From contig NZ_CP064048.1 in the NCBI RefSeq assembly GCF_020923495.1, forward strand, positions 2,435,501 to 2,499,500: DNA of 64,000 nt, in the 5' to 3' direction. Origin of the DNA: Brevibacillus sedimenti. Its GTDB lineage: Bacteria; Bacillota; Bacilli; Brevibacillales; Brevibacillaceae. Positions 11,340 to 57,261 of the stretch are shown here, piece after piece. How positions within the stretch are numbered: position 1 is the first letter of the stretch; each line of letters begins with the position of its first letter. The position numbers and the translations under genes were made by a program. The notes below the pieces were generated by a model that was given only the letters and a program-made list of their open reading frames with translations, did no database searches and had not been told where the DNA came from.

Positions 11340-12092
11340 ATGCTTCATCAATTTTCCCGTTGTGAGCTGGCCTTCGGTCCCGAGGGCTTGGAAAAAATGA
11401 AAAACAGCACCGTCGCCGTGCTGGGCATCGGCGGCGTCGGTTCGTTTACGGTGGAGGCATTGGCCCGCACTGGCGTCGGCAAGCTGGTGCTGGTGGACAA
11501 GGACGTGGTGGACATCACCAACATCAACCGGCAGATTCACGCCACCCTGCATACCATCGGCCAGCCAAAGACCGAGCTGATGAAGGAGCGCATCGCTGCG
11601 ATCAATCCGGAGTGCGAAGTGGTCACACTGAACATGTTTTACAACCAGGAGACGGCCGATCAGCTTTTCGCCCACAAGCTGGATTACATCGTTGACGCGA
11701 TGGACCTCATGACGGCCAAGCTTCACGTGATCCAGGAGGCGAAGCGGCGCGGCATTCCGATCGTCTCCAGCATGGGGGCGGCGAACAAGATGGACCCGAC
11801 CCGGTTCGAAGTGGCTGACATTTCCCAGACCAGCTACGACCCGATCGCCAAGGTGATCCGGCGCGAACTGCGGAAAAAAGGCATCCACAAAGGCGTCAAA
11901 GTGGTGTATTCCAAAGAAATTCCGGTAACGATCCGCGAAGACGTGCGTACCCAGATTGCCGATACCAATTCGCCGATCAGCAAGGCACGCCGTCCCCCAG
12001 CAAGCAACGCGTTTGTGCCTTCCGTTGCGGGGCTGATTCTGGCCAGCGTCGTCGTCCGCGACATACTGGACTGGCAGCCGGCAAAAGGATAA
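11340..12092 (+). CDS. tcdA: tRNA threonylcarbamoyladenosine dehydratase
   Basis: A 250-residue E1/ThiF-superfamily enzyme (YgdL/CsdL/YrvM group) that uses ATP to cyclise t6A to ct6A at position 37 of tRNAs. The ATP-binding loop VLGIGGVGS is near residue 30, followed by the DKDVVDITNINRQIHA motif and the conserved MGAANKMDPTRFEVADI segment. Length and location after aspS and 6S RNA match B. subtilis yrvM. Two consecutive hairpin terminators follow. Confidence 0.93.
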   Translation: MLHQFSRCELAFGPEGLEKMKNSTVAVLGIGGVGSFTVEALARTGVGKLVLVDKDVVDITNINRQIHATLHTIGQPKTELMKERIAAINPECEVVTLNMFYNQETADQLFAHKLDYIVDAMDLMTAKLHVIQEAKRRGIPIVSSMGAANKMDPTRFEVADISQTSYDPIAKVIRRELRKKGIHKGVKVVYSKEIPVTIREDVRTQIADTNSPISKARRPPASNAFVPSVAGLILASVVVRDILDWQPAKG

Positions 12093-45365: not shown

Positions 45366-45428
45366 CACCCCTTAAAGTAGACATTGGAAAAACCCCTTGG
45401 GATAACCGATGTTACTTTAAGGGGTGAA
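45366..45428. repeat. Large inverted repeat at the IS left end
   Basis: CACCCCTTAAAGTA (45366-45379) and TACTTTAAGGGGTG (about 45413-45428, with one extra base) form a near-perfect stem extended by ACAT / ATGT. The right arm contains AAGGGGTG, the ribosome binding site of orfA. RNA made from outside the element would fold this site away. Confidence 0.7.
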
Positions 45429-45434
45429 TTTTTT

Positions 45435-45731
45435 ATGGCTATCAAAGGTCAAAAGTTCAAGCATTATCCTTTGTCGTTGAAAATGGAGGCAATACGATTG
45501 CATGTAGAGGAGAAGTGGACATACAGACGTATCACTGAGCATTTAGGAATCCAGGATAAGGATCGAGTAAAAAAATGGATGCGGAAATACAAACAACTTG
45601 GGGAGTTCGGTCTTTTGGATCAGCGTGGACGACGTCCAGAGTACATCGATCAAGATCGACATGTGAAAAAATTGAAACGGGAGAACGAAATTCTAAAAAA
45701 GTGTTTGGAAATCTGGATGCGGGAGGTGTAA
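45435..45731 (+). CDS. IS3-family transposase OrfA
   Basis: 98 residues: N-terminal helix-turn-helix (YPLSLKMEAIRLHVEEKWTY ... ITEHLGIQDKDRVKKWMRKY) and a C-terminal leucine-zipper-like helix (DRHVKKLKRENEILKKCLEI). It binds the IS ends. The AAAAAAG heptamer at 45695-45701 near its end is a typical -1 frameshift signal that would produce the OrfAB transposase. Confidence 0.88.
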   Translation: MAIKGQKFKHYPLSLKMEAIRLHVEEKWTYRRITEHLGIQDKDRVKKWMRKYKQLGEFGLLDQRGRRPEYIDQDRHVKKLKRENEILKKCLEIWMREV

Positions 45732-45748
45732 GAAAAAAGTATCGTGTG

Positions 45749-46594
45749 ATGGAGAATGTGGCAGCATTGTACCCGATTACCGAACTCTCCAAACTTCTTG
45801 GTGTATCGAGGAGTGGGTATTATCGGTATCTTGCACAGAAGGAGTGGGATAGAGACGGAGAACTGAAACAGCAGATTCAAACCATCTATGATGAACGAAA
45901 AGGAATATATGGGTATCGAAGAATTCAAGCGGAACTCTTTCGTCAATACGGCAAGGTTGTGAATCATAAGAAGGTGTTACGACTCATGCAAATTCTTGGG
46001 CTGAAAGCCATTATTCGTGGCAAGCGAGCGTATCGGAGCACGTATCGAGCGGCTGAATCAGATGGTCGTGTTGCCGAAAATTTGTTGAAGCGTGACTTCA
46101 CAGCCGAGAAACCGAACCAGAAGTGGGTCACCGATGTTACCCAGTTTCGTGTAGGAGATCAACGTATCTTCTTATCTGCGATTAAAGACTTGTTTCACAA
46201 CGAAATCGTGGCGCACCATGTGAGCTTACACAATGACAATGTCCTTGTCCTGGAGACGTTTCGGAAAGCATTTGAAAAGCATAAGGACGTGACTGGACTG
46301 ATCGTACACAGCGATCAAGGCTTCCAGTACACGTCCCATGCATACCACGACATGCTGCAAAAGGTTGGCGCCCGAATCAGCATGTCCCGAAGGGGCAATT
46401 GTTTAGACAATTCCCCTATGGAGAGTTTCTTCTCGCACTTAAAGGCAGAAGCTCTCTATCCTTATGATATTCGAAGTTTGGATGAGGCGCAAAGACGAAT
46501 TGAGGAGTACATTCGTTTTTACAATGAGGAGCGTTTGCAAATCAAATTAAATAAGCTGACGCCAGTCGAGTACAGGCGTCAGCATGCGGCCTAA
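45749..46594 (+). CDS. IS3-family transposase OrfB (DDE integrase)
   Basis: From ATG 45749 about 281 residues; the frame is open from 45575 and is normally expressed as an OrfAB fusion by -1 frameshifting at 45695-45701. The HTH_21 region (YPITELSKLLGVSRSGYYRY; GIYGYRRIQAEL) precedes the rve core with the DDE triad: Asp in WVTDVTQF, Asp in IVHSDQGFQYTS and Glu in NSPMESFFSHLK. No disruption is seen. Confidence 0.9.
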   Translation: MENVAALYPITELSKLLGVSRSGYYRYLAQKEWDRDGELKQQIQTIYDERKGIYGYRRIQAELFRQYGKVVNHKKVLRLMQILGLKAIIRGKRAYRSTYRAAESDGRVAENLLKRDFTAEKPNQKWVTDVTQFRVGDQRIFLSAIKDLFHNEIVAHHVSLHNDNVLVLETFRKAFEKHKDVTGLIVHSDQGFQYTSHAYHDMLQKVGARISMSRRGNCLDNSPMESFFSHLKAEALYPYDIRSLDEAQRRIEEYIRFYNEERLQIKLNKLTPVEYRRQHAA

Positions 46595-46936: not shown

Positions 46937-47309
46937 CTACCTGCCCTGCGTCTGCTTCGTCCGATAAAACTCATTAAACAACTTCATCAATGCCCGCTTC
47001 TCGATCCGCGACACGTACGAACGGGAAATGCCCAGCTCGCGGGCGATTTCCCGCTGTGTCTTCTCTTTGTCCTGGTCCAGACCGAACCGGCCAATGATCA
47101 CTTCTTTTTCCCTCTCATCGAGGATGTGGATGTGCTGGTAGATCTTGTTTGACTCCAGCTTGAGCTGCACGGTGTCCACGACCTCGTCAATCTCCGTGCC
47201 CAGCACGTCGATCAGGGTGATTTCATTCCCTTCCTTGTCGGTTCCGATGGGGTCGTGCAGCGACACGTCCTTTTTGGTTTTTTTCAAACTGCGCAGATGC
47301 ATCAGAATC
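46937..47309 (-). CDS. sigK: SigK exon 3 (C-terminal part of sigma-K)
   Basis: The last 124 codons of the mother-cell sigma factor of late sporulation. Sequence from [20 protein letters not shown] onward covers the end of region 2, region 3 and region 4 ([20 protein letters not shown], the -35-binding HTH). It corresponds to B. subtilis spoIIIC, the 3' part of sigK split by skin. The exon begins behind the GA crossover core (47310-47311) of element A. As the DNA stands, translation could only begin at ATG 47302 and the product would lack the core-binding regions. Confidence 0.93.
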
Positions 47310-47330
47310 TCGAGTTTACTGTCAAACGTA
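47296..47330. other. Attachment site of element A, sigK exon 3 side
   Basis: Minus-strand order: arm TTGACAGTA (47325-47317), AACTC, core GA (47311-47310), then sigK exon 3 GATTCTGATG. The arm is the mirror of TACTGTCAA at 50075-50067. Confidence 0.8.
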
Positions 47331-47406
47331 TGCGGACCGTCGTATGTGGCAGCGGCGGGTGCCGCTTGTTGGCGTGCAATCCGTGACTGGTGTGTCTGTG
47401 TTGTGC

Positions 47407-48183
47407 TTATCTCCTCAACGTCACATTCTCTCGCCAGCCGAGCTCGTACGAAATCCGTCTGACAGTCTCCTTAAGCACCTGGATTAATTCAGGCAGCCGC
47501 TCGTCGCCGAATCGAACATCCGGACCGGCAATGCTTAATCCGGCACAGATGCGGCCGAGATGGTCAAAAATGGGCGCCGCCACCGCCGCGGTGTTTTCCT
47601 CCAGTTCCGAATAGCTGACGGTATAGCCGTTTTTCCGCGCTTCGGCGAGTACGTCCCGGAGCCGCTGCTTGTCCGTAATGGTTCCGGAAGCGTATGGAAC
47701 CAGCGTGGTCGCGTTTATATACTGTTCACGTTCCTGTTCGTCCAGAAAGGCGAGGATGATGCGGGAACAGGCTCCCGCGTAGAGTGGGGATCTTCTGCCA
47801 ATTTTCGTATAAAGCCGGACCGGATGCAGTGTGTCCAACTTCTCAATATACATGGCCTGGTCCCCGTCGCGAACGATCAGATTGACAGCCTCGTCCACCT
47901 GATCCCGCAAGGTTTTCATCAATGGCAACGCGATTTGGCGGATATCCAATCGCTCGGCCACCAATTGGCCGAACTGCAGGAATGTCAACCCCAGCGAGTA
48001 GCTGCCGTCTTCGTTTTTCTGTAAGAATCCCATCTCTTCCAGCGACCCTGTCATGCGGTGAATGGACGTTTTGGGCATGCCCGACAGTTCTACCATCTCA
48101 TTGAGGCTTAGTTTCGCGTGTTGGAGAAACAGATTCAGCACTTCCATCGATTTGACAAGTGTCTTGTTCTTGTGTTGTACCAT
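47407..48183 (-). CDS. IclR-family transcriptional regulator, cargo of element A
   Basis: 258 residues: N-terminal winged helix ([16 protein letters not shown] ... [21 protein letters not shown]) and C-terminal IclR effector domain ([14 protein letters not shown] ... [19 protein letters not shown]). Effectors and targets are unknown. ATG 48183 has AAGGGG close and GGGGAGG further upstream. A perfect palindrome TACTAT-TATG-ATAGTA (48308-48323) in its promoter region may be its operator. It is excised with the element and so would be lost only from the mother cell. Confidence 0.88.
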
Positions 48184-48550
48184 GAGCCCCTTGATCCTCC
48201 CCAGCCAATCAAAAGATGGACCCCAACGACTACGGGTGAAGATTTGGTCATGCACAGACCGCCGCAGAGTGGTGTTCCGTATTTCAGAACATTCATTTCA
48301 AAATTGTTACTATTATGATAGTATTTCGTAAATGAGAAAATCAACATGTACATTTTGAAAATGGACGAGGGCTGGCAGTCCAATTTCGCTTTGTTTGCCA
48401 ATCCGCTACTTTTGACAAGCCCAAGCCGCATACCTTCTGACAGGGAGGGATGTGCGGTGCGTGTACAGCTCATACCTGGAGATTCTGCTCACAGTCTCCG
48501 ATCCGCCTGTTATCAGTACTTGTCAGGAAAATACAGGAGGGAGAAGCTGA
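48184..48550. promoter_or_regulatory. Divergent intergenic region of element A
   Basis: 367 bp between the IclR gene (left) and the recombinase gene (right). It holds the palindrome TACTAT-TATG-ATAGTA (48308-48323), an inverted repeat TGTTC-N9-GAACA around 48272-48290 and the recombinase ribosome binding site GGAGGGAG. The CATACCT sequences at about 48429 and 48471 recall sigma-E -10 boxes, but no matching -35 was found. Confidence 0.45.
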
Positions 48551-50050
48551 ATGGTCGGGATTTACGCCAGGGTGAGTACGGAGGAACAAGCGAAAAGCGG
48601 ATTCAGCCTCAACGACCAAATCAGGGAGTGCCGGAAGAAAGCGGGGACCTGCGAGGTGGTCGAATACGTCGATGACGTATCGGGTGAGTTTCTCGACCGG
48701 CCTGCCCTCACCAAACTGCGGCATGATGTAAAAGAAGGCTTGATTACAAAAGTAATCTGCCTGGACCCGGACCGGCTTTCGCGCAAGCTGATGAACCAGC
48801 TGATCATCACGGATGAATTTGACAAACGCGGGGTTGAGCTGGTGTTTGTCAATGGAGAGTACGCCAAAACGCCGGAAGGGCAGCTGTTTTACAGCATGCG
48901 CGGGGCCATCGCGGAATTTGAAAAAGCCAAGATCAATGAGCGGATGAGCCGGGGACGGAGGGAAAAGGCGCGGCAAGGTCGAGTGCTGCGGGATTTTAAA
49001 ATCTACGGATACGGCTATGATCCCGCCACCGAGCAATTGGTGGTGAAAGAGGACGAGGCCGTGGTGATCCGGCTCATCTTTGATCTTTTCACACAGCCCA
49101 ACGGCCTGGTGCAGGGCATCAATGGAATTGCAAAGTACCTGACGGACAAGGGAGTGCCGACAAAACGGGGAGCGAAAGTGTGGCACCGGCAAGTGGTTCG
49201 GCAGATTCTGATGAACGAAGCGTACATCGGGAAATTTTATCAAAATCGCTGGAATACGGAGGGGATGCTGGGAAACAGGTTTCGTTCGCCCGAGGAGAAA
49301 GTCCGGATGAGACAGCGGCCAAAAGAAGAGTGGATTTTACTCCCGTGCCCTGCGATTGTCGATGAATCCACCTTTGCGCTGGCACAAAAAATGCTGAAGG
49401 AAGCGCGGAGGCGATGGGCCGGCAGACGGCTTCATTCCTATTTGTTAAGCGGGTTGGTCCGCTGCGGCGACTGCGGCAATACGATGACCGGGCGAAAGAC
49501 AAAGCATTGGGGGAGGGACGTCTACGAGTACACGGACATCAAAAACACGGCGGGAGCCAAACACCGCGGCTGCGGGCGGCGCGTGAAGTGCGACGAGCTG
49601 GACCGGGAAGTGTGGGAAACCATCCGAACCTGGCTGAATCAGCCGGAGGAAATGGCGGCAGCCGTTGAGCAGCGCGACGAACCCTCGTTTGAGCAAGCTG
49701 AAATGGACCGGCTGACGAAAGAGTTGAACAAAACCAGAGTCGGCCGCAAGCGGTTGCTGAAGCTGTTTGCGTCAGGGGAAGATGCACTGGGAGAAGAGGA
49801 GCTTCGCCAGGAACTGCAAGAGCTGAAGAACAAAGAAGAGCGATTGGTGCAGCAGCTTGCAGAATGGCAGGAGCGGGTGAAACGCATGGAGGAAACGGGG
49901 GAGAACCGGAATGTCCTTTGGGAAGCGGCCAACTACTACTTGTCCAAGGCGCCTGAGGAGCTTACGTTTGAAGATAAACGGGAACTGATTCGCCATGTCG
50001 TACGCGAGGTCAAGGTCTTTCAGGATCACATCGCCGTCTACACCTTCTGA
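48551..50050 (+). CDS. spoIVCA: Large serine recombinase of element A (SpoIVCA-like)
   Basis: 499 residues, close in length and sequence to the B. subtilis skin recombinase. The resolvase domain starts [19 protein letters not shown] with catalytic Ser in RVST and [13 protein letters not shown]; the recombinase domain contains [16 protein letters not shown], identical in style to SpoIVCA; the zinc ribbon has [15 protein letters not shown] and RGCGRRVKC; a coiled coil (about residues 390-450) follows. GGAGGGAG precedes ATG 48551. It ends 31 bp before the core site of its own element. It should excise element A in the mother cell. Confidence 0.94.
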
Positions 50051-50059
50051 TTCAGATGC

Positions 50060-50100
50060 ATCCCGATTGACAGTAGGAGATCATTTTCAATGCAGCGGGC
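50060..50100. other. Attachment site of element A, sigK exon 2 side
   Basis: Minus-strand order: sigK exon 2 ATTGAAAAT, core GA (50082-50081), TCTCC, arm TACTGTCAA (50075-50067). Confidence 0.8.
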
Positions 50101-50220
50101 GGCATACGTCGCCAGTTTGGTCCCTTTTTCTACCTGGTAGCTCTCGATGGCTTTGATCAGTCCGATCGTCCCGATGGAAATCAGGTCTTCGCTGTCTTCG
50201 CCGGTGTTTTCAAACTTTTT
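50081..50220 (-). CDS. sigK: SigK exon 2 (middle part of sigma-K)
   Basis: 140 nt encoding [20 protein letters not shown] and onward to ARCIEN, the sigma region 2 core that includes -10 recognition and core polymerase contacts. It is flanked on both sides by recombination cores, AA at 50219-50220 (element B) and GA at 50081-50082 (element A). Reading past the exon on the minus strand, the frame ends at TAG 50038 inside element A. Upstream it runs without a proper start into element B, so this exon cannot be expressed until the elements leave. Confidence 0.93.
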
Positions 50221-50240
50221 GAGGATGTGAACACAATTCG
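50205..50240. other. Attachment site of element B, sigK exon 2 side
   Basis: Minus-strand order: arm GTGTTCACA (50234-50226), TCCTC, core AA (50220-50219), then exon 2 AAAGTTTGAA. The stop codon of recombinase B (50210) lies beyond the core, inside sigK. Confidence 0.8.
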
Positions 50241-51850
50241 ATGCCATTTCCAGATGAAAGGAACTGCTGCCGCTTCAACTCGTCAAGGGCGCCGACGGCC
50301 GTGACTTGCACTTCGTCGCCATCAAAGCGGATCAGGATCTCATCAACCAACGTTTCCACGATATGGCGCTTATCCGCAAAGCTGAGTTGATCGCCGCCGC
50401 TCTCTACAAACGTTCGAATCGTTTGCGTCAGCTGAGCCGCTTGGGTGGCGGAAAGCTTTCTTTCCAACACTTCGGACAGTTGCTTTTCATAGCCGGAGAG
50501 TTCTTGCTTTAGCGACGTTAACCCGGCGTTGATGTGCCGCATTTCGTTGAGCATCTCTTGTTCGTCGATGACTTCTCGCTTGAACATGAGTTTAATCTTT
50601 TCTTTTTCCTTTTCTTTCTGCTCGATTTGCCGTTTGATATTCTCCGCAGCAGACTGCAGCTCCATATGAAGCTCTGTCGATCGGTTTTGCAACCGTTCGA
50701 TGTAATCAGCGGGATTGGACAGCGTTTCCAGGACTAACCGCCATACGAAATCGTCGAGCATATCGGCGCGCAGCGTTCGGGTTGGACACTTTTCGACGCC
50801 TTCGCCATACCGCTTTGGAGTTTTGTTTGGACAACGATAACACGTGTAACGGATCTTTTCCCCTGTCTCTTTATGAGTTCGCCCGCTATACGTCGTTGCC
50901 TGCCACATCCGGCCGCAATGTCCGCAACGGATCATGGATTTTAACAAGTAATCATATTTGACGTTTCCCGATTTCTTTTTGTTTTTCTCTCTCCGCGACT
51001 GCGCCAGGGCGAAAACCTGCGGGTCAATGATGGGAGGAACCTCGACCAGAATCCAGTCATTTTCATCGCGGAACGTAACCGTTTTTTTGGGGTTCCCGTT
51101 CTTCGTTTTTTCTCCGCGGATTTTGCGTGTTTCCCGCCGATTGTAATAAAACCTGCCGATATACACTTCCGACGTTAACACGCGCCGAATGGAACTGGCA
51201 CTCCAGTTCCGGCTTTCACCGCGTTTCGGCACGGCTCCGAGCGAATACAGACGTTCCCCGATCTCCCGCAGCGTATAATGATCATAGACATACCAGTGAT
51301 ACATTTTGCGGACAAATTCTGCTTCCTCCTCATTGATCACCAACGTATGCCCGCTCAGGTCATAACCGTACGGAGCCGTCCGCATCGGCATAATTTTTTT
51401 CTCTTTCTCCACCGCTTTGAGTCGGCCGCGCACCGTCCGTTTTTTAATCAACGACAACTCGTACTGGGCAATGGAGCTCATGAGATTGAAAAAGAGCTGT
51501 CCCTCCGGAGTGTTTCGGTACTCCGTATCCACGAAGATGATCTCAACATCGCTTCTCTCCAATTCTCGGCAGAGGATTAATTTATCGGTCAAATCTCTGG
51601 TCAATCGGTCGGGATGTGTAACAATCAATCGATTGATGATTCCCTGCGCGACATCCTGCCTTAAGTCATTCATCGCCGGTCGGTCGATGTCCTCGCCCGT
51701 AAAACCTTCTTCGCGATATACCTTTAGCATCTTTTCGGAAAGCCCCATGTCTCTCGCTTTTCGAATGCAAATCTCAACTTGCGCATCAAGACTGGTTCCC
51801 TCAGACGCCTGCATGCCCGTTGAAACCCTTGAGTAGATTGCGGTGTACAT
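50210..51850 (-). CDS. Large serine recombinase of element B
   Basis: 546 residues, clearly different from the element A enzyme. Resolvase domain: [20 protein letters not shown] with catalytic Ser, and [14 protein letters not shown]; recombinase domain: [14 protein letters not shown] and [20 protein letters not shown]; zinc ribbon: [12 protein letters not shown] and YTCYRCPN; then a long coiled coil (about residues 400-480). ATG 51850 was chosen, with GAAGGGAG ten bases upstream. Its last codons (SHPQKV) cross the attachment core into sigK exon 2, so excision changes its C-terminus. Confidence 0.93.
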
Positions 51851-51906
51851 GATGAAACAGGCTCCCTTCAATCTTTGCTAATACAACCAATGACACCCGA
51901 AGCAAC

Positions 51907-51934
51907 AAAAAAACCGGCTTATTCAGTCGGTTTT
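51907..51934 (-). terminator. Terminator upstream of recombinase B
   Basis: Minus strand: ACCGACT / AGCCGGT stem (one mismatch), loop GAATA, then seven T. It separates recombinase B from upstream transcription within the element. Confidence 0.6.
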
Positions 51935-51948
51935 AAAAATCAATCGTT

Positions 51949-52056
51949 TTAAGATATAGTCGATAACTGCGTATTTGGCCTCGTTGGCGGATAAGGCGCT
52001 CGAGGGGGGGGAACCGCAAAAGGCTGCGGCACATATACGATTTTGATGGTCGACAT
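51949..52056 (-). CDS. Possible Pro-rich peptide of 35 residues
   Basis: ATG 52056 lies about nine bases after GAGGAG, and the frame ends just before a terminator. The product is MSTIKIVYVPQPFAVPPPRA followed by more Pro/Thr-rich sequence. No family recognised; the start site, ribosome binding site and terminator make a small gene plausible. Confidence 0.35.
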   Translation of the reverse strand: MSTIKIVYVPQPFAVPPPRAPYPPTRPNTQLSTIS

Positions 52057-52184
52057 TCGTCCCATGCTCCTCACCTCAATACACCTTATTCCGCCGGTCG
52101 ATTGTCCTAACACAACCGATCGATGTTTTCGACAAAGGTGCATTTCTCTTTCCTCAATAGGTCAGGGGAGCGGAGTTGCCGCGG

Positions 52185-52334
52185 ATGGCGCTATCGGACG
52201 GAATGTCACAAACCTGTGCCTGTGTTGTGATAGCCGGAAAAAAGCTGCGCGTTGAGAATCTCATCCGCCAGGAGAAGATCACGGAAGCGTATCTGATCCG
52301 CCTGGTGGATGAAGTTTGCTGCCGGTTTTTTTGA
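52185..52334 (+). CDS. Possible small protein of 49 residues
   Basis: ATG 52185 follows GGGGAGCGGAG by about ten bases. The C-terminal half (KLRVENLIRQEKITEAYLIR) looks like a structured helix pair, which is why it is listed; the N-terminal half is not convincing. It may be a remnant. No family recognised. Confidence 0.28.
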   Translation: MALSDGMSQTCACVVIAGKKLRVENLIRQEKITEAYLIRLVDEVCCRFF

Positions 52335-52414
52335 GAAGAGCGCAAACGACATGCCAGTGTGGCAGAGGTGAACGGCAGGTGGGCAACGTTATTGGACTGG
52401 CTCCGCTCATGGTA

Positions 52415-52462
52415 TAAAAAACCGGTAACACTCGTTTTTCGCGAGTTGTCACCGGTTTTTTC
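52415..52462. terminator. Terminator of the element B ABC operon
   Basis: AAAAAACCGGTaACACTCG pairs with CGAGTTGTcACCGGTTTTTT around a T-rich loop; both strands T-rich. Confidence 0.8.
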
Positions 52463-52472
52463 AAGGCACCGA

Positions 52473-53624
52473 TTATCCGAGCGCCGTTTTCAGGAAAGCT
52501 TTAAATCGCAGCAGCGCTACCGCAAGTCCCGCCAACGCGACAGCCGCCAGTACGAGCAGCGATTGCCATATGTCTGCGGTGTGCATGCCGCGAACGATGA
52601 TGTCCTGGAACGCCTTCTGCGCCCAGAATTGCGGCGTGAAATGACCGATCGCGCGCATCGTGGACGGCATAAGGTCGATCGGGAACCAGAGACCGCCGAG
52701 CACAGCCCCGCCCATCGTCAACAACTGCGTGAGTGCCATTCCCTGGTTTTCGCTCCTGACCAGCATTGACAGTGCGAGGCCAAGCCCCGTTCCGCACAGC
52801 GCAAGCGCGAACACCAGCAAGGCGATTGCAGTGATGTCGCCGAGCTGCAAGCCGTAAACCCAGTGTCCGAACAACAGCAGCACCGTGCATTGGATCAGCG
52901 CCACCGCGAGATAGGCCAGCCACATGCCCGCCAGGTAGCTGATCGGCTTGATCGTCGTGCTGCGCATACGCGCGATCATGCCCGATTCCTTGTCGCTCAT
53001 AAACCGCCGAATCATCGAAATGATGACGAAGAAGACGAACATGACGGTATAGCCGGGTACATATTGCGAAATACTGCTGTTGGTCAAAGCGTTTTCCGGT
53101 CTGTCGTCGATGCGGAACGGCGCGGCCATGACCTGCTCCTGCCACGACTTGGACCGCGCCGTCGCCTGGAGAGCGGCTTTCACCTTGTTGTCCCGATAAC
53201 CGTTCGCCAGGTTTTCAAGAATGGCGAGCAGGGGGCCGGCAGCAGCTTCGGCCGCGGCGTCGCGATAGACCGTTACCGATGTCTGCTTTCCTTCTTGGGA
53301 CTCGATCCCTTGCCCGAATTTTCTTGGAATGACGAGCAGCACCGTTTCCTTGCCGTCGCGGATTTGTTGAATTTTGTCCGCCATCTCGCTCTCGACCGCC
53401 TCAACCATCTTGTAGCCGCCGGCGTCTTCGATTGCCTGAATGAACGCCCTGGAGGCGGTTGTCTGATCAAGGTCAATGTAGGATATCTTGAGGGACGTAT
53501 TGCCGGCGCCGTTGAAGATGGTGCCAAACAATACGATAAAGGCAATCGGCAGTACGATCAGCCAGAAAAACAACCCTTTCTCTTTAAGCAGCAGCTTCCA
53601 TTCTTTGCGTGCTACATTCCACAT
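52473..53624 (-). CDS. ABC-2 type transporter permease
   Basis: 383 residues. One N-terminal helix (GLFFWLIVLPIAFIVLFGTI), a large extracytoplasmic loop of about 150 residues, then five helices in the C-terminal half, the typical ABC2_membrane_3 layout of drug or bacteriocin exporters. The ATPase gene lies 25 bp upstream, so they form one exporter. Last gene of the element B operon. Confidence 0.88.
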   Translation of the reverse strand: MWNVARKEWKLLLKEKGLFFWLIVLPIAFIVLFGTIFNGAGNTSLKISYIDLDQTTASRAFIQAIEDAGGYKMVEAVESEMADKIQQIRDGKETVLLVIPRKFGQGIESQEGKQTSVTVYRDAAAEAAAGPLLAILENLANGYRDNKVKAALQATARSKSWQEQVMAAPFRIDDRPENALTNSSISQYVPGYTVMFVFFVIISMIRRFMSDKESGMIARMRSTTIKPISYLAGMWLAYLAVALIQCTVLLLFGHWVYGLQLGDITAIALLVFALALCGTGLGLALSMLVRSENQGMALTQLLTMGGAVLGGLWFPIDLMPSTMRAIGHFTPQFWAQKAFQDIIVRGMHTADIWQSLLVLAAVALAGLAVALLRFKAFLKTALG

Positions 53625-53649
53625 TGTAAGATCTCCTTTCAGGTTCCAC

Positions 53650-54573
53650 TCAGGAATCGCGCAGCGTCGTTCCGGTCAACGCCAGAAACACGGTCTCCAA
53701 CGATGGACGGACGACTTCCAGCCGTTTGACGTTGAGCGATCGCTCTTTGCATGCGGAAGCCCAGCAGGCGAGCGCATCGAGCGGCGCCGCCGTTTCCAGC
53801 AGCCAGCCGCGCCCTTGCGCCGCCGGTTCGTCGAAGCCCGGAAGCGCCGGCGGCCGTTCGCCTTCCGCCAGTTCCAGGTAGACGGCCTGTGATCCAAATC
53901 GGTCGAGCACCTCGTTCAATTCACCTTGGGCGATGACGCTGCCGTGGTCGATGATGGCCAAGCGATCGCACAATGCTTCAACTTCTTCCATATAGTGAGT
54001 GGAGTACAGCACCGTTACGCCCTCCCGCTTCAAAGAGCGAATCATTTCAAAAATGTGGTTCCGTGATTGCGGGTCGATGCCTACGGTCGGTTCGTCCATA
54101 ATGATCAGCTTCGGTTTGTGCAGCAGTGCGGCGGCGATGTTGATCCGGCGTTTCATCCCGCCGGAGAAGGAAGCGATCGGATCTTTTGCCCGGTCTGCCA
54201 GGCCGACTTGCTCCAGCACCTCACGAATCCGTTTCTTCAGTTCGCCGCCCCGTACTCCGTACATTTCCCCGAAATAGGTCAGGTTGTCCAGCGAGTTCAA
54301 CTTCTCGTACAGCGTAATCGATTGCGGCACATATCCCAGCTTTGCCTTGATCCGGTCGCCGGAACGGCGAATGTCTTCGCCGAGCACCTTCACACCTCCC
54401 GCGTCGAATTCGAGCAAACCAGCCAAAATTTTCATCGTCGTCGATTTGCCGGCGCCGTTTGGACCGAGGAGACCGAAGCAGCTTCCTTCCCGGACGGTGA
54501 ACGAAATGTCTTTGAGCGCCATTTTGCTGCCGTATGATTTACCGAGACCGTGTATTTCAATTGCAGGTTTCAA
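53650..54573 (-). CDS. ABC transporter ATP-binding protein (exporter type)
   Basis: 307 residues: Walker A GPNGAGKST, Q-loop YVPQS, signature FSGGMKRR, Walker B LIIMDEPTVGID and H-loop STHYMEE, followed by a C-terminal accessory domain of about 85 residues (DUF4162-like). The FSGGMKR type is found with ABC-2 permeases that export antibiotics or polysaccharides. ATG 54573 has AAGGAGG upstream. The permease gene follows at once. Confidence 0.92.
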   Translation of the reverse strand: MKPAIEIHGLGKSYGSKMALKDISFTVREGSCFGLLGPNGAGKSTTMKILAGLLEFDAGGVKVLGEDIRRSGDRIKAKLGYVPQSITLYEKLNSLDNLTYFGEMYGVRGGELKKRIREVLEQVGLADRAKDPIASFSGGMKRRINIAAALLHKPKLIIMDEPTVGIDPQSRNHIFEMIRSLKREGVTVLYSTHYMEEVEALCDRLAIIDHGSVIAQGELNEVLDRFGSQAVYLELAEGERPPALPGFDEPAAQGRGWLLETAAPLDALACWASACKERSLNVKRLEVVRPSLETVFLALTGTTLRDS

Positions 54574-54585
54574 AGGAATTCCTCC

Positions 54586-55320
54586 TTAAAATCGTAAATG
54601 TCGGGAAACGATGCGAATTGCACCCGTTAAAGTCAGCCCTGCCAACGCCCAGACGAGCGGAATCGCCGGGTAGATCCATCCGGGCAAAACTGCTGACACC
54701 CAAGCATCCGGTTGCTTGGAGAGCACGTTTCCGGCCACCCATGTCAGCGTGTTGGCTGACAGACCGAACAGGATCCACAGAAGCGGCGTCAACACTACCC
54801 AGCGTGAATGGGCGACTGCCGCCGTCAGCAGGCCAAGCGCCAGCATGAACGGGGCCAAGCCCAACAGAACGGTCGCGAAGACTGCTTCACCAGCGAACAA
54901 GTTGTGCAGCGGCGCGGTTCCAAGCCCGTGAACCGCTGCGTTGTAAAGGACAAGAAGCGTCAGGCTTCCGAAAAACAGCACGTAGACGAGCAGCATGTGC
55001 AGGAATGCGGCGCCAAATTTGGCCAGCAGCAGTGTGGAGCGGGAATAGGGCAGCGTAATCCACCAGCCGACAGTCCCGTTTTTCCACTCCCGCAGCAGCA
55101 CCCGGAACGAAATCATGAAGGTCAGGTAAGGAAGCATATAGGCCAAATACAACAAATACTCCGTCCGAAAACCTCCCCGTTCTTTCCAGACAGTCAATGC
55201 CGCCGCCAACAGCAGGACGATGACTCCGCCATACTTCGCCATCCATTTCTTCTGGAAAAACTTCCGCAATTCCAGGCGGAATTCGTGCCGAAGCAAATAA
55301 CGAAACGTGTTTTCGCTCAT
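54586..55320 (-). CDS. ABC transporter permease, YtrC/D-like
   Basis: 244 residues with six hydrophobic helices and a short basic N-terminus (LLRHEFRLELRKFFQKKW); the segment WKNGTVGWWITLPYSRSTLLLAKF is typical of ABC-2 permeases paired with YtrB/BcrA-type ATPases. ATG 55320 has AGGGGGAC seven bases upstream. It lies 13 bp after the ATPase gene at 55334. Confidence 0.84.
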   Translation of the reverse strand: MSENTFRYLLRHEFRLELRKFFQKKWMAKYGGVIVLLLAAALTVWKERGGFRTEYLLYLAYMLPYLTFMISFRVLLREWKNGTVGWWITLPYSRSTLLLAKFGAAFLHMLLVYVLFFGSLTLLVLYNAAVHGLGTAPLHNLFAGEAVFATVLLGLAPFMLALGLLTAAVAHSRWVVLTPLLWILFGLSANTLTWVAGNVLSKQPDAWVSAVLPGWIYPAIPLVWALAGLTLTGAIRIVSRHLRF

Positions 55321-55333
55321 ATATCCGTCCCCC

Positions 55334-56041
55334 TTAATCACCGAACAGTTGGCGATAAATGTCCCGCATCGAGCCCCGCTGCGCCCGAAGCTCCTCCACT
55401 TCGCCGCACAATACGGCCCGACCGTCCTGAATGAACACCGCATAGTCGAACAGACTTTCCGTTTCTCCGATTTCGTGCGTGCTGATCAGCACTGTCTGCT
55501 TCCGTTCGCTGAAGGCATCGATCAGGGACAGCACGATCTGCTCCCGCGAGATCATGTCGATGCCCGAGAACGGTTCGTCCAGCACAAGCAGCGGCACGTC
55601 GCGAGCCAGACACAGCACGAGCATCAGCCGAGCCTCCTGGCCTCTGGACATGCCTTCGACTTCCAGTTCCACGTCCAGTTTGAAATCACTCGCCAGTTGG
55701 TGAGCGCGATCCCGGTTGAATCCCGGAAGCAGCCGTTCTCCCCACTCCAAGGCGTCTGCCACCGTGTGGCCGCCGTACCATCGCGCCCGGTCGGGCAGGT
55801 AGGCGATCAAATGGTTACGCTCCCACCCGGGCTGCCGGCCAAACACGTTCACTGTCCCCTGATCGGGAACCGTCATTCCCGCGATGATGCGCATCATTGT
55901 CGACTTCCCGGCCCCGTTCGGCCCAAGAATCGCCGTGATGCTTCCTTCAGGAATCGCAAGAGTCAGTTCGTTCAGCCCGCGGCGTTTGCCGTAGTACTTC
56001 GTCAATCTGTCGAAGACAATCGCGTTAGCTGTCAAGCCCAT
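55334..56041 (-). CDS. ABC transporter ATP-binding protein, YtrB-like
   Basis: 235 residues: Walker A GPNGAGKST, signature-type MSRGQEARL (SGGQ degenerated to SRGQ, as in YtrB-like proteins), Walker B LLVLDEPFSGID and H-loop STHEIGE. AAGGAGG lies three bases ahead of ATG 56041. The start overlaps the end of the GntR gene by 17 bp, indicating coupled expression. Confidence 0.9.
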   Translation of the reverse strand: MGLTANAIVFDRLTKYYGKRRGLNELTLAIPEGSITAILGPNGAGKSTMMRIIAGMTVPDQGTVNVFGRQPGWERNHLIAYLPDRARWYGGHTVADALEWGERLLPGFNRDRAHQLASDFKLDVELEVEGMSRGQEARLMLVLCLARDVPLLVLDEPFSGIDMISREQIVLSLIDAFSERKQTVLISTHEIGETESLFDYAVFIQDGRAVLCGEVEELRAQRGSMRDIYRQLFGD

Positions 56042-56423
56042 CGTCCTCCTTCTCGTGCAACAAACGCAGTATTTCATCCTTTGTCAGTCCGAGACTTTTC
56101 ATTTTGTTCAAAAAATCCGTCGTTGCCTGCTCCGCCAACATTTGGCGAACTTCCGCGACCCGATTCGCATTGTTTGTTATAAACGTTCCCTGTCCCCGCC
56201 GCGTCTCCGTCAACCCGTCACGCTCCAGTTCCTGGTAAGCGCGCAACACTGTATTCGGGTTGATTTTCAGCGCCTGCGCCAGTTCCCGAACGGAAGGTAT
56301 TTTTTCTCCCAAAGCGATTTCTCCCCTTGCAATGGAATTGCGGAACTGTTCCAGCACTTGCTCATATAAAGGCTGGCTGTAGTCCAGCACAAACCGAATC
56401 GGACCGTACCGAAATTCATTCAA
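56025..56423 (-). CDS. YtrA-like GntR-family regulator
   Basis: 132 residues: the GntR winged helix (PLYEQVLEQFRNSIARGEIA ... IPSVRELAQALKINPNTVLRAYQELERDG ... RRGQGTFI) with only a short C-terminal tail, the YtrA subgroup that controls adjacent ABC transporters, often in response to cell-wall antibiotics. TTG 56423 was chosen because GGGGGGAG lies five bases upstream and the protein then begins like YtrA. A promoter is visible upstream (56485-56512). It should repress its own operon. Confidence 0.88.
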   Translation of the reverse strand: MNEFRYGPIRFVLDYSQPLYEQVLEQFRNSIARGEIALGEKIPSVRELAQALKINPNTVLRAYQELERDGLTETRRGQGTFITNNANRVAEVRQMLAEQATTDFLNKMKSLGLTKDEILRLLHEKEDDGLDS

Positions 56424-56484
56424 ACGTCTCCCCCCCTTTCCGGTCGAAACGGCTGCAGCTACTCTAAGCAATCGTTCTGAGTGT

Positions 56485-56512
56485 ATTATATCACTTAAGA
56501 CACTTGAGTCAA
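56485..56512 (-). promoter_or_regulatory. Promoter of the GntR-ABC operon
   Basis: Minus strand: TTGACT (56512-56507), 16-bp spacer, TATAAT (56490-56485). The spacer carries the repeats CACTTAAGA and CACTTGAG, possible GntR operator halves. Confidence 0.7.
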
Positions 56513-56854
56513 TAAAGAGATTTCTGGGACAAGCGTGTAACAAAGGAACTGATCATTCGAATGAATGTGACTTAACCGTGGGGAGGGGAAAGGGGAGAGA
56601 GGGAGAACAACGCAGACAAGACAGCTGAGGAAATCCGGTGGGAGAGCCTGAAGCAGCCGCGGATGAATGCTGCCGCAGGGGCCGAATTCATCAAGATGCC
56701 GGGAGCAAAAAAAAGCAGCATTCACGTGATAACGCCGCCGCCCTCGACCTTTTCGCTGACCAGGGAGGAATATGTACGCATATACCGAATACAGGAGCAG
56801 ATTGCAAACGGTTGAAGCAGCCGGCTGGCGACCTAATGCTCGTTTCCGAGGATC
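56513..56854. other. Gene-free end of element B
   Basis: 342 bp between the GntR promoter and the attachment site next to sigK exon 1. I see purine-rich tracts (GGGGAGGGGAAAGGGGAGAG) and short open frames but no supported gene. It may hold recombination-directionality sequences. Confidence 0.4.
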
Positions 56855-56885
56855 GTGTTTACAACGTGTTGACAATGTGGGCCAC
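56850..56885. other. Attachment site of element B, sigK exon 1 side
   Basis: Minus-strand order: sigK exon 1 GCCCACATTGTC, core AA (56870-56869), CACGT, arm TGTAAACAC (56863-56855). CACAT-N2-TCAA is shared with the other end. Confidence 0.8.
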
Positions 56886-57068
56886 AAGCCGCAGATTGTG
56901 CTCGATCAGTTTGTTGCGCGCGTACGGGTCCCCTTCTGCCATCAGCTTCAGGTATTTTTCCTCTTCTGTATCGGGCAGTGGCTGGGGAAACGCGTTGTTC
57001 TTGACGTAGGCCACAAACAGCATGAGTTCCTTGAACAACAGGGAAAGCGCCGCTAAGATGCTGGACAC
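56859..57068 (-). CDS. sigK: SigK exon 1 (N-terminal part of sigma-K)
   Basis: GTG 57068 with GGAGGTG upstream; 66 sigK codons (57068-56871) from [20 protein letters not shown] to LRLVAHIV, followed after the AA core by a short tail NTL and a stop (TAA 56859) that come from element B. Contains the pro-sequence-like hydrophobic N-terminus and the NNAFPQPL and [11 protein letters not shown] parts of sigma region 2. Corresponds to the front of B. subtilis spoIVCB. The truncated product cannot work as a sigma factor. Confidence 0.93.
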
Positions 57069-57261
57069 GTCTGCCACCTCCACGTCTGGATGCTTACTCC
57101 TATCCATATGTGGGCGGCTGCCCATGCGTGCCTGTACGGGAAAAAGGACGGCGCGAACGGAACGGCTGGGGAACCGTGATCGGCCAGGGGGTGATCTGAA
57201 GCCTTTAAGCCAAAGTGACGCCCCGGAACGCGTCGCCGGGGCTGGAAAAGGTGCATGCCGA

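Follow-up and report, generated by a model that had tools for sequence, protein, structure and literature searches.

sigK of Brevibacillus sedimenti is cut in three by two different, probably removable DNA elements

We found that sigK in a stretch of Brevibacillus sedimenti DNA is cut in three by two different, probably removable DNA elements, which we call A and B. The stretch (the window) covers 64,000 nucleotides, positions 2,435,501 to 2,499,500 of the single 3.93 Mb contig NZ_CP064048.1. Programmed DNA excision during bacterial development is classically illustrated by sigK, and accounts of it usually feature a single element per gene. In this genome, a tblastn search with sigK placed the gene on the minus strand as three pieces with the two elements between them. 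We hold with good confidence that element B is a small integrative skin-like element and that its recombinase, RecB, comes from a lineage for which the HIV|KKFEN codons of sigK are the target. The pieces, elements and crossovers lie at the following window positions (G and L numbers used below are our labels for genomes, loci and other records).

56871..57083, minus strand: sigK piece 1, residues 1-71 of the compared protein, ending ...LRLVAHIV (tblastn with sigK)
56869-56870, minus strand: crossover AA of element B on the 5' side of sigK (from a comparison of five elements)
50219..56870, minus strand: element B, with 6,650 bp from one crossover to the other, inserted exactly between HIV and KKFEN
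50219-50220, minus strand: crossover AA of element B on the 3' side of sigK
50081..50220, minus strand: sigK piece 2, KKFEN...CIEN, flanked by element B (core AA at 50219-50220) and element A (core GA at 50081-50082)
47310..50082, plus strand: element A, 2,771 bp, cores GA
46940..47309, minus strand: sigK piece 3, from ILMHLRSL... through the C terminus

With both elements omitted, the pieces translate as one stop-free frame, as they do around skin-like elements. The initial annotation of this DNA had placed element B at 50219-56870 in sigK, 138 bp from the skin-type site of element A, and had proposed that a shared AA restores HIV-KKFEN. The coordinates proved right, the two crossovers are 138 bp apart in sigK (50081 versus 50219) and the joined pieces give one open, conserved frame. 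Relative to sigK of another Brevibacillus (G022), 35 codons of the joined gene differ synonymously and 4 non-synonymously (5/3, 6/0 and 24/1 in pieces 1, 2 and 3); relative to the intact gene of G041, the counts are 104 and 11, respectively. The true start codon of sigK may sit as far out as 57125.

Joining the two ends of element B gives GTGTTCACA-TCCTC-AA-CACGT-TGTAAACAC, which reproduces the 9-5-2-5-9 layout of the attachment (att) site described in the initial annotation, with arms that match at eight of nine positions. Within the window alone, the stretch common to both ends is TCAA, so that AA is not resolved; since the bases beside AA differ between the ends in G016, G011 and G009, AA is the shared core. 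These three homologous B-site elements share the 9-5-2-5-9 layout, with arm matches of 9/9 (G016), 8/9 (G009) and 7/9 (G011). A joined, un-inserted attP with perfect 9/9 arms is present in Paenibacillus naphthalenovorans (L100; contig NZ_FNDY01000056.1, about 11578-11720), and this junction is a natural confirmation of the predicted attP. Element B has a short shared core with inverted arms in attP, as skin-like elements do (in G007 the arms take another layout). The L100 contig also carries a helicase gene resembling BrxH/SngC-type helicases in a defence library, and the same genome bears another B-type recombinase at sigK (L102).

It could be argued that chance or an assembly artefact lies behind the split and the arms, given that equally good arms (8/9 in the 9-5-2-5-9 layout) occur at 18 of 63,970 window positions. 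Here the position of B was fixed in advance by the reading frame. In addition, the assembly is a single contig, the same junction is found in independently sequenced genomes and a joined attP is found in another genome. These observations already refute an artefact, which we regard as vanishingly improbable.

The initial annotation had called the insertion point new and had proposed a search for elements at the HIV/KKFEN position of sigK. That search found many, and the word 'new' has to be dropped. Among 26 Brevibacillus genomes, sigK is split at B only in four (G007 (B. centrosporus), G009, G011 (B. panacihumi) and G016 (B. invocatus)), at A in ten and at both B and A in the genome of the window; the other 11 have an uninterrupted copy, which shows the empty site. 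Two of the ten genomes split at A (G022 and G004) are also split at a third site, C, at KEG|NEIT. A profile of five B recombinases had 18 relatives above 650 bits among 398 genomes of the class (the profile's own five included). We also examined 53 named loci, from a collection of 78 returned, leaving out 25 weak matches (L153-L177). A RecB-type recombinase had a sigK piece at its att end in 35 of the 53 (32 on the KKFEN side and 3 on the HIV side), a count that includes L148 of Alicyclobacillus suci (HIV side), whose recombinase is 34% identical and belongs to a separate Alicyclobacillus lineage. The other 18 comprise four contigs with at most about 210 bp beyond the match, one attP contig, three broken or weak recombinases and nine plus one off-site loci. 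Hosts of B-type elements outside Brevibacillus include several genera of Bacilli (Paenibacillus, Aneurinibacillus, Thermoactinomyces, Shimazuella, Lihuaxuella, Croceifilum and Halalkalibacter) and a few Clostridia bins.

Other forms of sigK were seen near these elements. Extra sigK fragments stand beside the uninterrupted copy in G012, G019 and G020, and full copies or duplicated fragments lie near sigK elements in G085 (L094), G371 (L095), G019 (L035, L036), G012 (L037, L038), G007 (L032) and G258 (L089), which gives the impression that an intact sigK was reacquired next to the element in some lineages. At ten of ten Alicyclobacillus loci (L064, L066-L068 and L070-L075), a recombinase lies between sigK-like pieces, ...LVAHV and KKFD..., that are 2.4-2.6 kb apart. 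When six of these genomes were searched for SigK, five had a separate intact gene and the sixth (G316) was split at the A site. The split sigK-like copy in Alicyclobacillus therefore looks like a paralogue.

The recombinase gene of element B adjoins one end of the element, so that B has its own site-specific recombinase, as skin-like elements do.

50210..51850, minus strand: recombinase B (RecB), a large serine recombinase of 546 amino acids from ATG, with Pfam Resolvase, Recombinase and Zn ribbon domains

The initial annotation had called the recombinase of B only distantly similar to SpoIVCA; measured against the recombinase of element A in the same sigK, the identity of RecB is 31%. Relatives of RecB are 78-79% and up to 88% identical to it. 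In a tree of 49 recombinases, 20 B, 14 A, 5 C and 8 Alicyclobacillus sequences each formed one clade; two further rows on long branches were poorly placed, and the joining of the B, C and Alicyclobacillus groups was weakly supported (86/55). The site labels need 4 changes over the 5 groups, which is the minimum, and none of 200 shuffles gave a number as low. One clade per site means that the choice of site goes with the recombinase lineage. RecB falls outside the clade of A-site recombinases in this tree, which was built without SpoIVCA. The reading frame of recB runs through attL, where its final codons lie, and ends at a stop codon in sigK sequence (window 50210-50245, minus strand). Relatives also read into sigK; excision would therefore give RecB a different C terminus.

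The B unit appears to move horizontally while its cargo changes. RecB of Paenibacillus ginsengihumi is 88% identical to that of the window and its sigK 75%, whereas in B. invocatus the corresponding values are 79% and 95%; the unit has thus crossed genera. Independent domestication of a second element, as put forward in the initial annotation, stands in part: B is a second independent unit, with its own clade, its own site and a candidate directionality factor. Domestication itself goes beyond the evidence, because B looks mobile and its candidate directionality factor gene is out of frame here.

These data also bear on whether the elements are selfish. Region 2 of sigK might simply be a safe site, a highly conserved target used by several unrelated mobile elements, with mother-cell excision as harm reduction by the element and not as control taken over by the host; the mechanics would be those of an excisable B, and only the benefit would differ. 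We give this explanation about an even chance. It fits the variation of cargo and size while the recombinase stays (4.6-65 kb in 12 B elements and 2.8-105 kb in 11 A elements measured), the passage of RecB across genera and the uninterrupted copy in 11 of 26 Brevibacillus genomes. It also fits the finding that one member of clade A is the integrase of an infectious phage, Alicyclobacillus phage MMB025, whose size of 105 kb matches the 105.2 kb gap at the A site of sigK in G316. Repeated double and triple occupation, together with elements of little more than a recombinase, suggests long retention, with which a selfish origin would still be compatible.

Upstream of recB is a conserved small open reading frame (ORF), 39-83 amino acids from the first start in profile matches. 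In the closest relatives the end of the small protein resembles EAKNAVIDYILKRLILKPTE, and a terminator-like hairpin followed by a T run can be seen by eye between the small ORF and recB. Its position resembles that of skr, just upstream of spoIVCA in the excerpted description of B. subtilis skin (PMC6957869), and for this reason we liken it to directionality factors and consider it a candidate recombination directionality factor of the B unit. In the window the gene is interrupted.

51922..52065, minus strand: candidate directionality factor gene, both halves recognisable in different frames
52004..52011, plus strand: eight-G run, the frame break of the candidate gene

All 14 aligned relatives keep the small ORF in frame, whereas the frame of the window is broken. 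The window ORF 51949-52143 was considered as an ordinary intact gene and ruled out, because the 14 relatives continue in another frame in the alignment. The 3.93 Mb genome has only four G/C runs of at least 8, the one in the small gene among them; of the other three, two lie between open frames or at the margin of one, and the third lies near the end of an overlapping frame. The break is possibly a reading error, slippage variation or a true loss.

Several observations weigh against the reading of B as a working, site-faithful excision unit. At nine of the 53 named loci the recombinase is 0.4-1.5 kb from a sigK copy or piece, and at L138 (Paenibacillus cookii), after 11638, the B-type att end runs into non-sigK sequence past its first bases, possibly because it marks a secondary site or a later deletion. 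In G009 the sigK pieces, about 34 kb apart, face opposite ways (C1:2922183-2922707, plus; 2956756-2956974, minus), so that simple excision would not restore sigK; att x att recombination would, by inversion. G007 has only 3/9 arm matches in the 9-5-2-5-9 layout and instead a 12-bp inverted repeat farther out, and the layout is usual, not universal, among B-site elements. Of 50 loci searched with an iterated profile, 40 (the window and 39 relatives) have the small protein near recB, and the profile matched nothing else among the 6,037 small ORFs there, but it was trained solely on matches near recB, so that 40/50 flatters its sensitivity; ten loci had no match, among them L104, which has the protein inside a longer ORF. 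A scan for sigma-E-like promoters, with a sigma-E consensus, gave no excess over shuffles upstream of the small gene (35 loci) or recB (35 loci), nor upstream of the skr-like ORF of A-type elements (10 loci), and it says little, as its positive control upstream of sigK (n=7) failed too (10.71 versus 10.46, standard deviation 0.24, not clearly above shuffles). Finally, the candidate directionality gene of the window does not stay in frame and a search of the genome for a second copy found none, so that B may be unable to excise in this strain, unless the G run was misread or is variable.

One explanation of the frame break is that B is locked and decaying: it could not excise with a broken directionality gene, sigK would be permanently disrupted, and late sporulation would be lost or would depend on a frame change. 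The in-frame relatives support this explanation, as do the match of each half of the small gene in its own frame and L145, where the recombinase matches in two separate parts, so that such units do decay. However, RecB, both att sites and all the sigK pieces are intact and sigK is conserved. Moreover, both halves of the small gene have kept their sequence, with 77% identity over residues 16-46, which argues that the frame was lost lately, varies or is a misreading of the long G run. We consider a locked element less likely than not.

Taking B as excisable, we propose that the unit consists of attL, the serine recombinase gene, the small directionality-factor gene just upstream of it, variable cargo and attR. 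By analogy with its recombinase family, RecB would insert the circular element through attP x attB recombination at AA. In the mother cell, RecB and the small protein would then excise B and join sigK pieces 1 and 2, a timing borrowed from relatives in the literature. Element A would be excised by its own unit, joining pieces 2 and 3, and functional sigma-K would need both events. Excision of B presumably occurs, would be confined to the mother cell and may work in this strain despite the frame break.

Element A has a unit of its own, laid out as follows.

48551..50050, plus strand: recombinase A, a large serine recombinase (Pfam), in the clade shared with the integrase of phage MMB025 (tree)
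48346..48675, plus strand: skr-like small ORF in a different frame from recombinase A, whose start it overlaps; its conservation begins at about residue 38
47407..48255, minus strand: A cargo, an IclR-family regulator (Pfam, NCBIfam), 88-90% identical in the A element of G022

The joined ends of A read TTGACAGTA-5-GA-5-TACTGTCAA, with arms that match at 9/9 positions. All 15 A-type loci examined, from 14 genomes or records (MMB025 included), have a small ORF that overlaps the recombinase start in another frame by 60-124 nucleotides, and in the excerpted account of B. subtilis skin skr overlaps spoIVCA by 101 nucleotides (PMC6957869). We call A skin-type because of this skr-like layout.

Occupation of one sigK by more than one element recurs in other genomes. 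Aneurinibacillus G180, which shares its genus label with Aneurinibacillus aneurinilyticus (G090), carries B, A and C elements between four sigK pieces on the same strand of one contig, with gaps of 15.3, 4.0 and 68.2 kb. The same four pieces are spread over more than one contig in G153, G393 and G264, and in G279 they lie on one contig with the last on the other strand (C1:373658-373930, minus). In bin L111 the two sigK pieces seen, 69-133 and 115-150, fit the presence of B, A and C. Doubles of B and A occur in the window, G090 and G139; doubles of B and C in G296, G195, G287 and the viral contig L078, as well as in L102 up to the contig end 83 bp on; and doubles of A and C in G022, G035 and G004. 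We found no report in the open-access literature of more than one element in one sigK, of the agreement between recombinase clade and site, or of the B-clade small protein. In many Bacilli sigK could be a multi-lock gene, with up to three unrelated, codon-faithful recombination units, each encoding a separate recombinase and, in the case of A and B, a separate small partner protein, forming an AND gate of excisions, all of them needed in one mother cell before sigma-K can be made; our own judgement on this is evenly divided.

Two excision units in one gene, and three in relatives, pose the question of how several serine recombinases are timed to finish within a single terminal cell. For studies of orthogonal recombinase/directionality pairs, sigK is a natural test bed, and the small protein with RecB forms a compact two-gene module with a candidate directionality factor. 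These units are relevant, too, to the question of whether elements of this kind govern sporulation or simply shelter in a gene whose host copy the next generation never has to read.

The cargo of element B (Pfam, NCBIfam) is as follows.

52473..56543, minus strand: B cargo overall
56025-56543, minus strand: GntR-type regulator
55334-56077, minus strand: ABC ATPase
54586-55443, minus strand: ABC permease
53650-54573, minus strand: ABC ATPase
52473-53624, minus strand: ABC-2 permease

This set of genes was absent from the related loci searched, and no phage structural or replication genes were found among the five B cargo proteins scanned with Pfam and NCBIfam, so B does not look like a prophage. 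Just past the 3' end of sigK lies a transposase with an integrase core domain (HTH_21, rve; 45384-46594, plus strand; ORF 45575-46594 scanned).

We compared B with published systems as described in excerpts of the reports cited. In B. cereus biovar anthracis, the 22 kb island IV lies in sigK at nucleotide 195 and its excision in sporulation gives an intact sigK; it is not a prophage, and its 545-amino-acid recombinase is 31% identical to SpoIVCA. In other B. cereus strains an insertion lies at nucleotide 423 of sigK (PMC10745906). Nucleotide 195 is codon 65; HIV ends at codon 66 in SigK of L179, L180 and L183, and the A and C sites would lie near nucleotides 333-336 and 417-420. In a B. cereus-like SigK sequence, HIV ends at codon 65. 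By codon counting, with one codon of N-terminal doubt, island IV probably uses site B; with the same one-codon doubt, the insertions at nucleotide 423 would correspond to site C. Island IV resembles B as a non-prophage element of sigK, and its insertion codon 65 probably corresponds, by count, to HIV|K, but in the part of the report drawn on it differs in having its recombinase gene beside the 5' piece and in the opposite direction, in its restriction-modification cargo and in being the sole sigK element (PMC10745906).

B. subtilis skin resembles B in interrupting sigK, in its serine recombinase and in a small protein directly upstream, which is a directionality factor in skin and a candidate one in B, and resembles element A in the overlapping layout of small ORF and recombinase (PMC6957869, in part). 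B differs from skin-type elements, as compared through A and not SpoIVCA, in using a site other than that of A, in belonging to another clade (31% identity to recombinase A) and in having a different, non-overlapping small protein. The skin element of C. difficile (skinCd) lies at a site that differs from that of B. subtilis, and in the excerpt its curing is reported to alter sigma-K timing or fidelity or spore quality (PMC5025042). Phage MMB025 of Alicyclobacillus is like B in targeting sigK with arms around a short core, and its integrase was the top-ranked phage-database match to RecB, at 29%; unlike B, it is an infectious phage, and its integrase falls in clade A with 50% identity to recombinase A (PMC13141910, in part). 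Two elements in other sporulation genes also resemble B in part: gin in gerE of B. cereus combines a serine recombinase with a small directionality factor and has no phage genes in the portion of the report used (PMC5595907), and SP-beta in spsM is likewise a sporulation-gene-intervening element with a serine recombinase and a small directionality factor (PMC4191935, in part). Unlike B, both have other target genes and, in these excerpts, are the single element of their gene. In sigK itself, each of sites A, B and C has a published precedent, B and C by codon counting.

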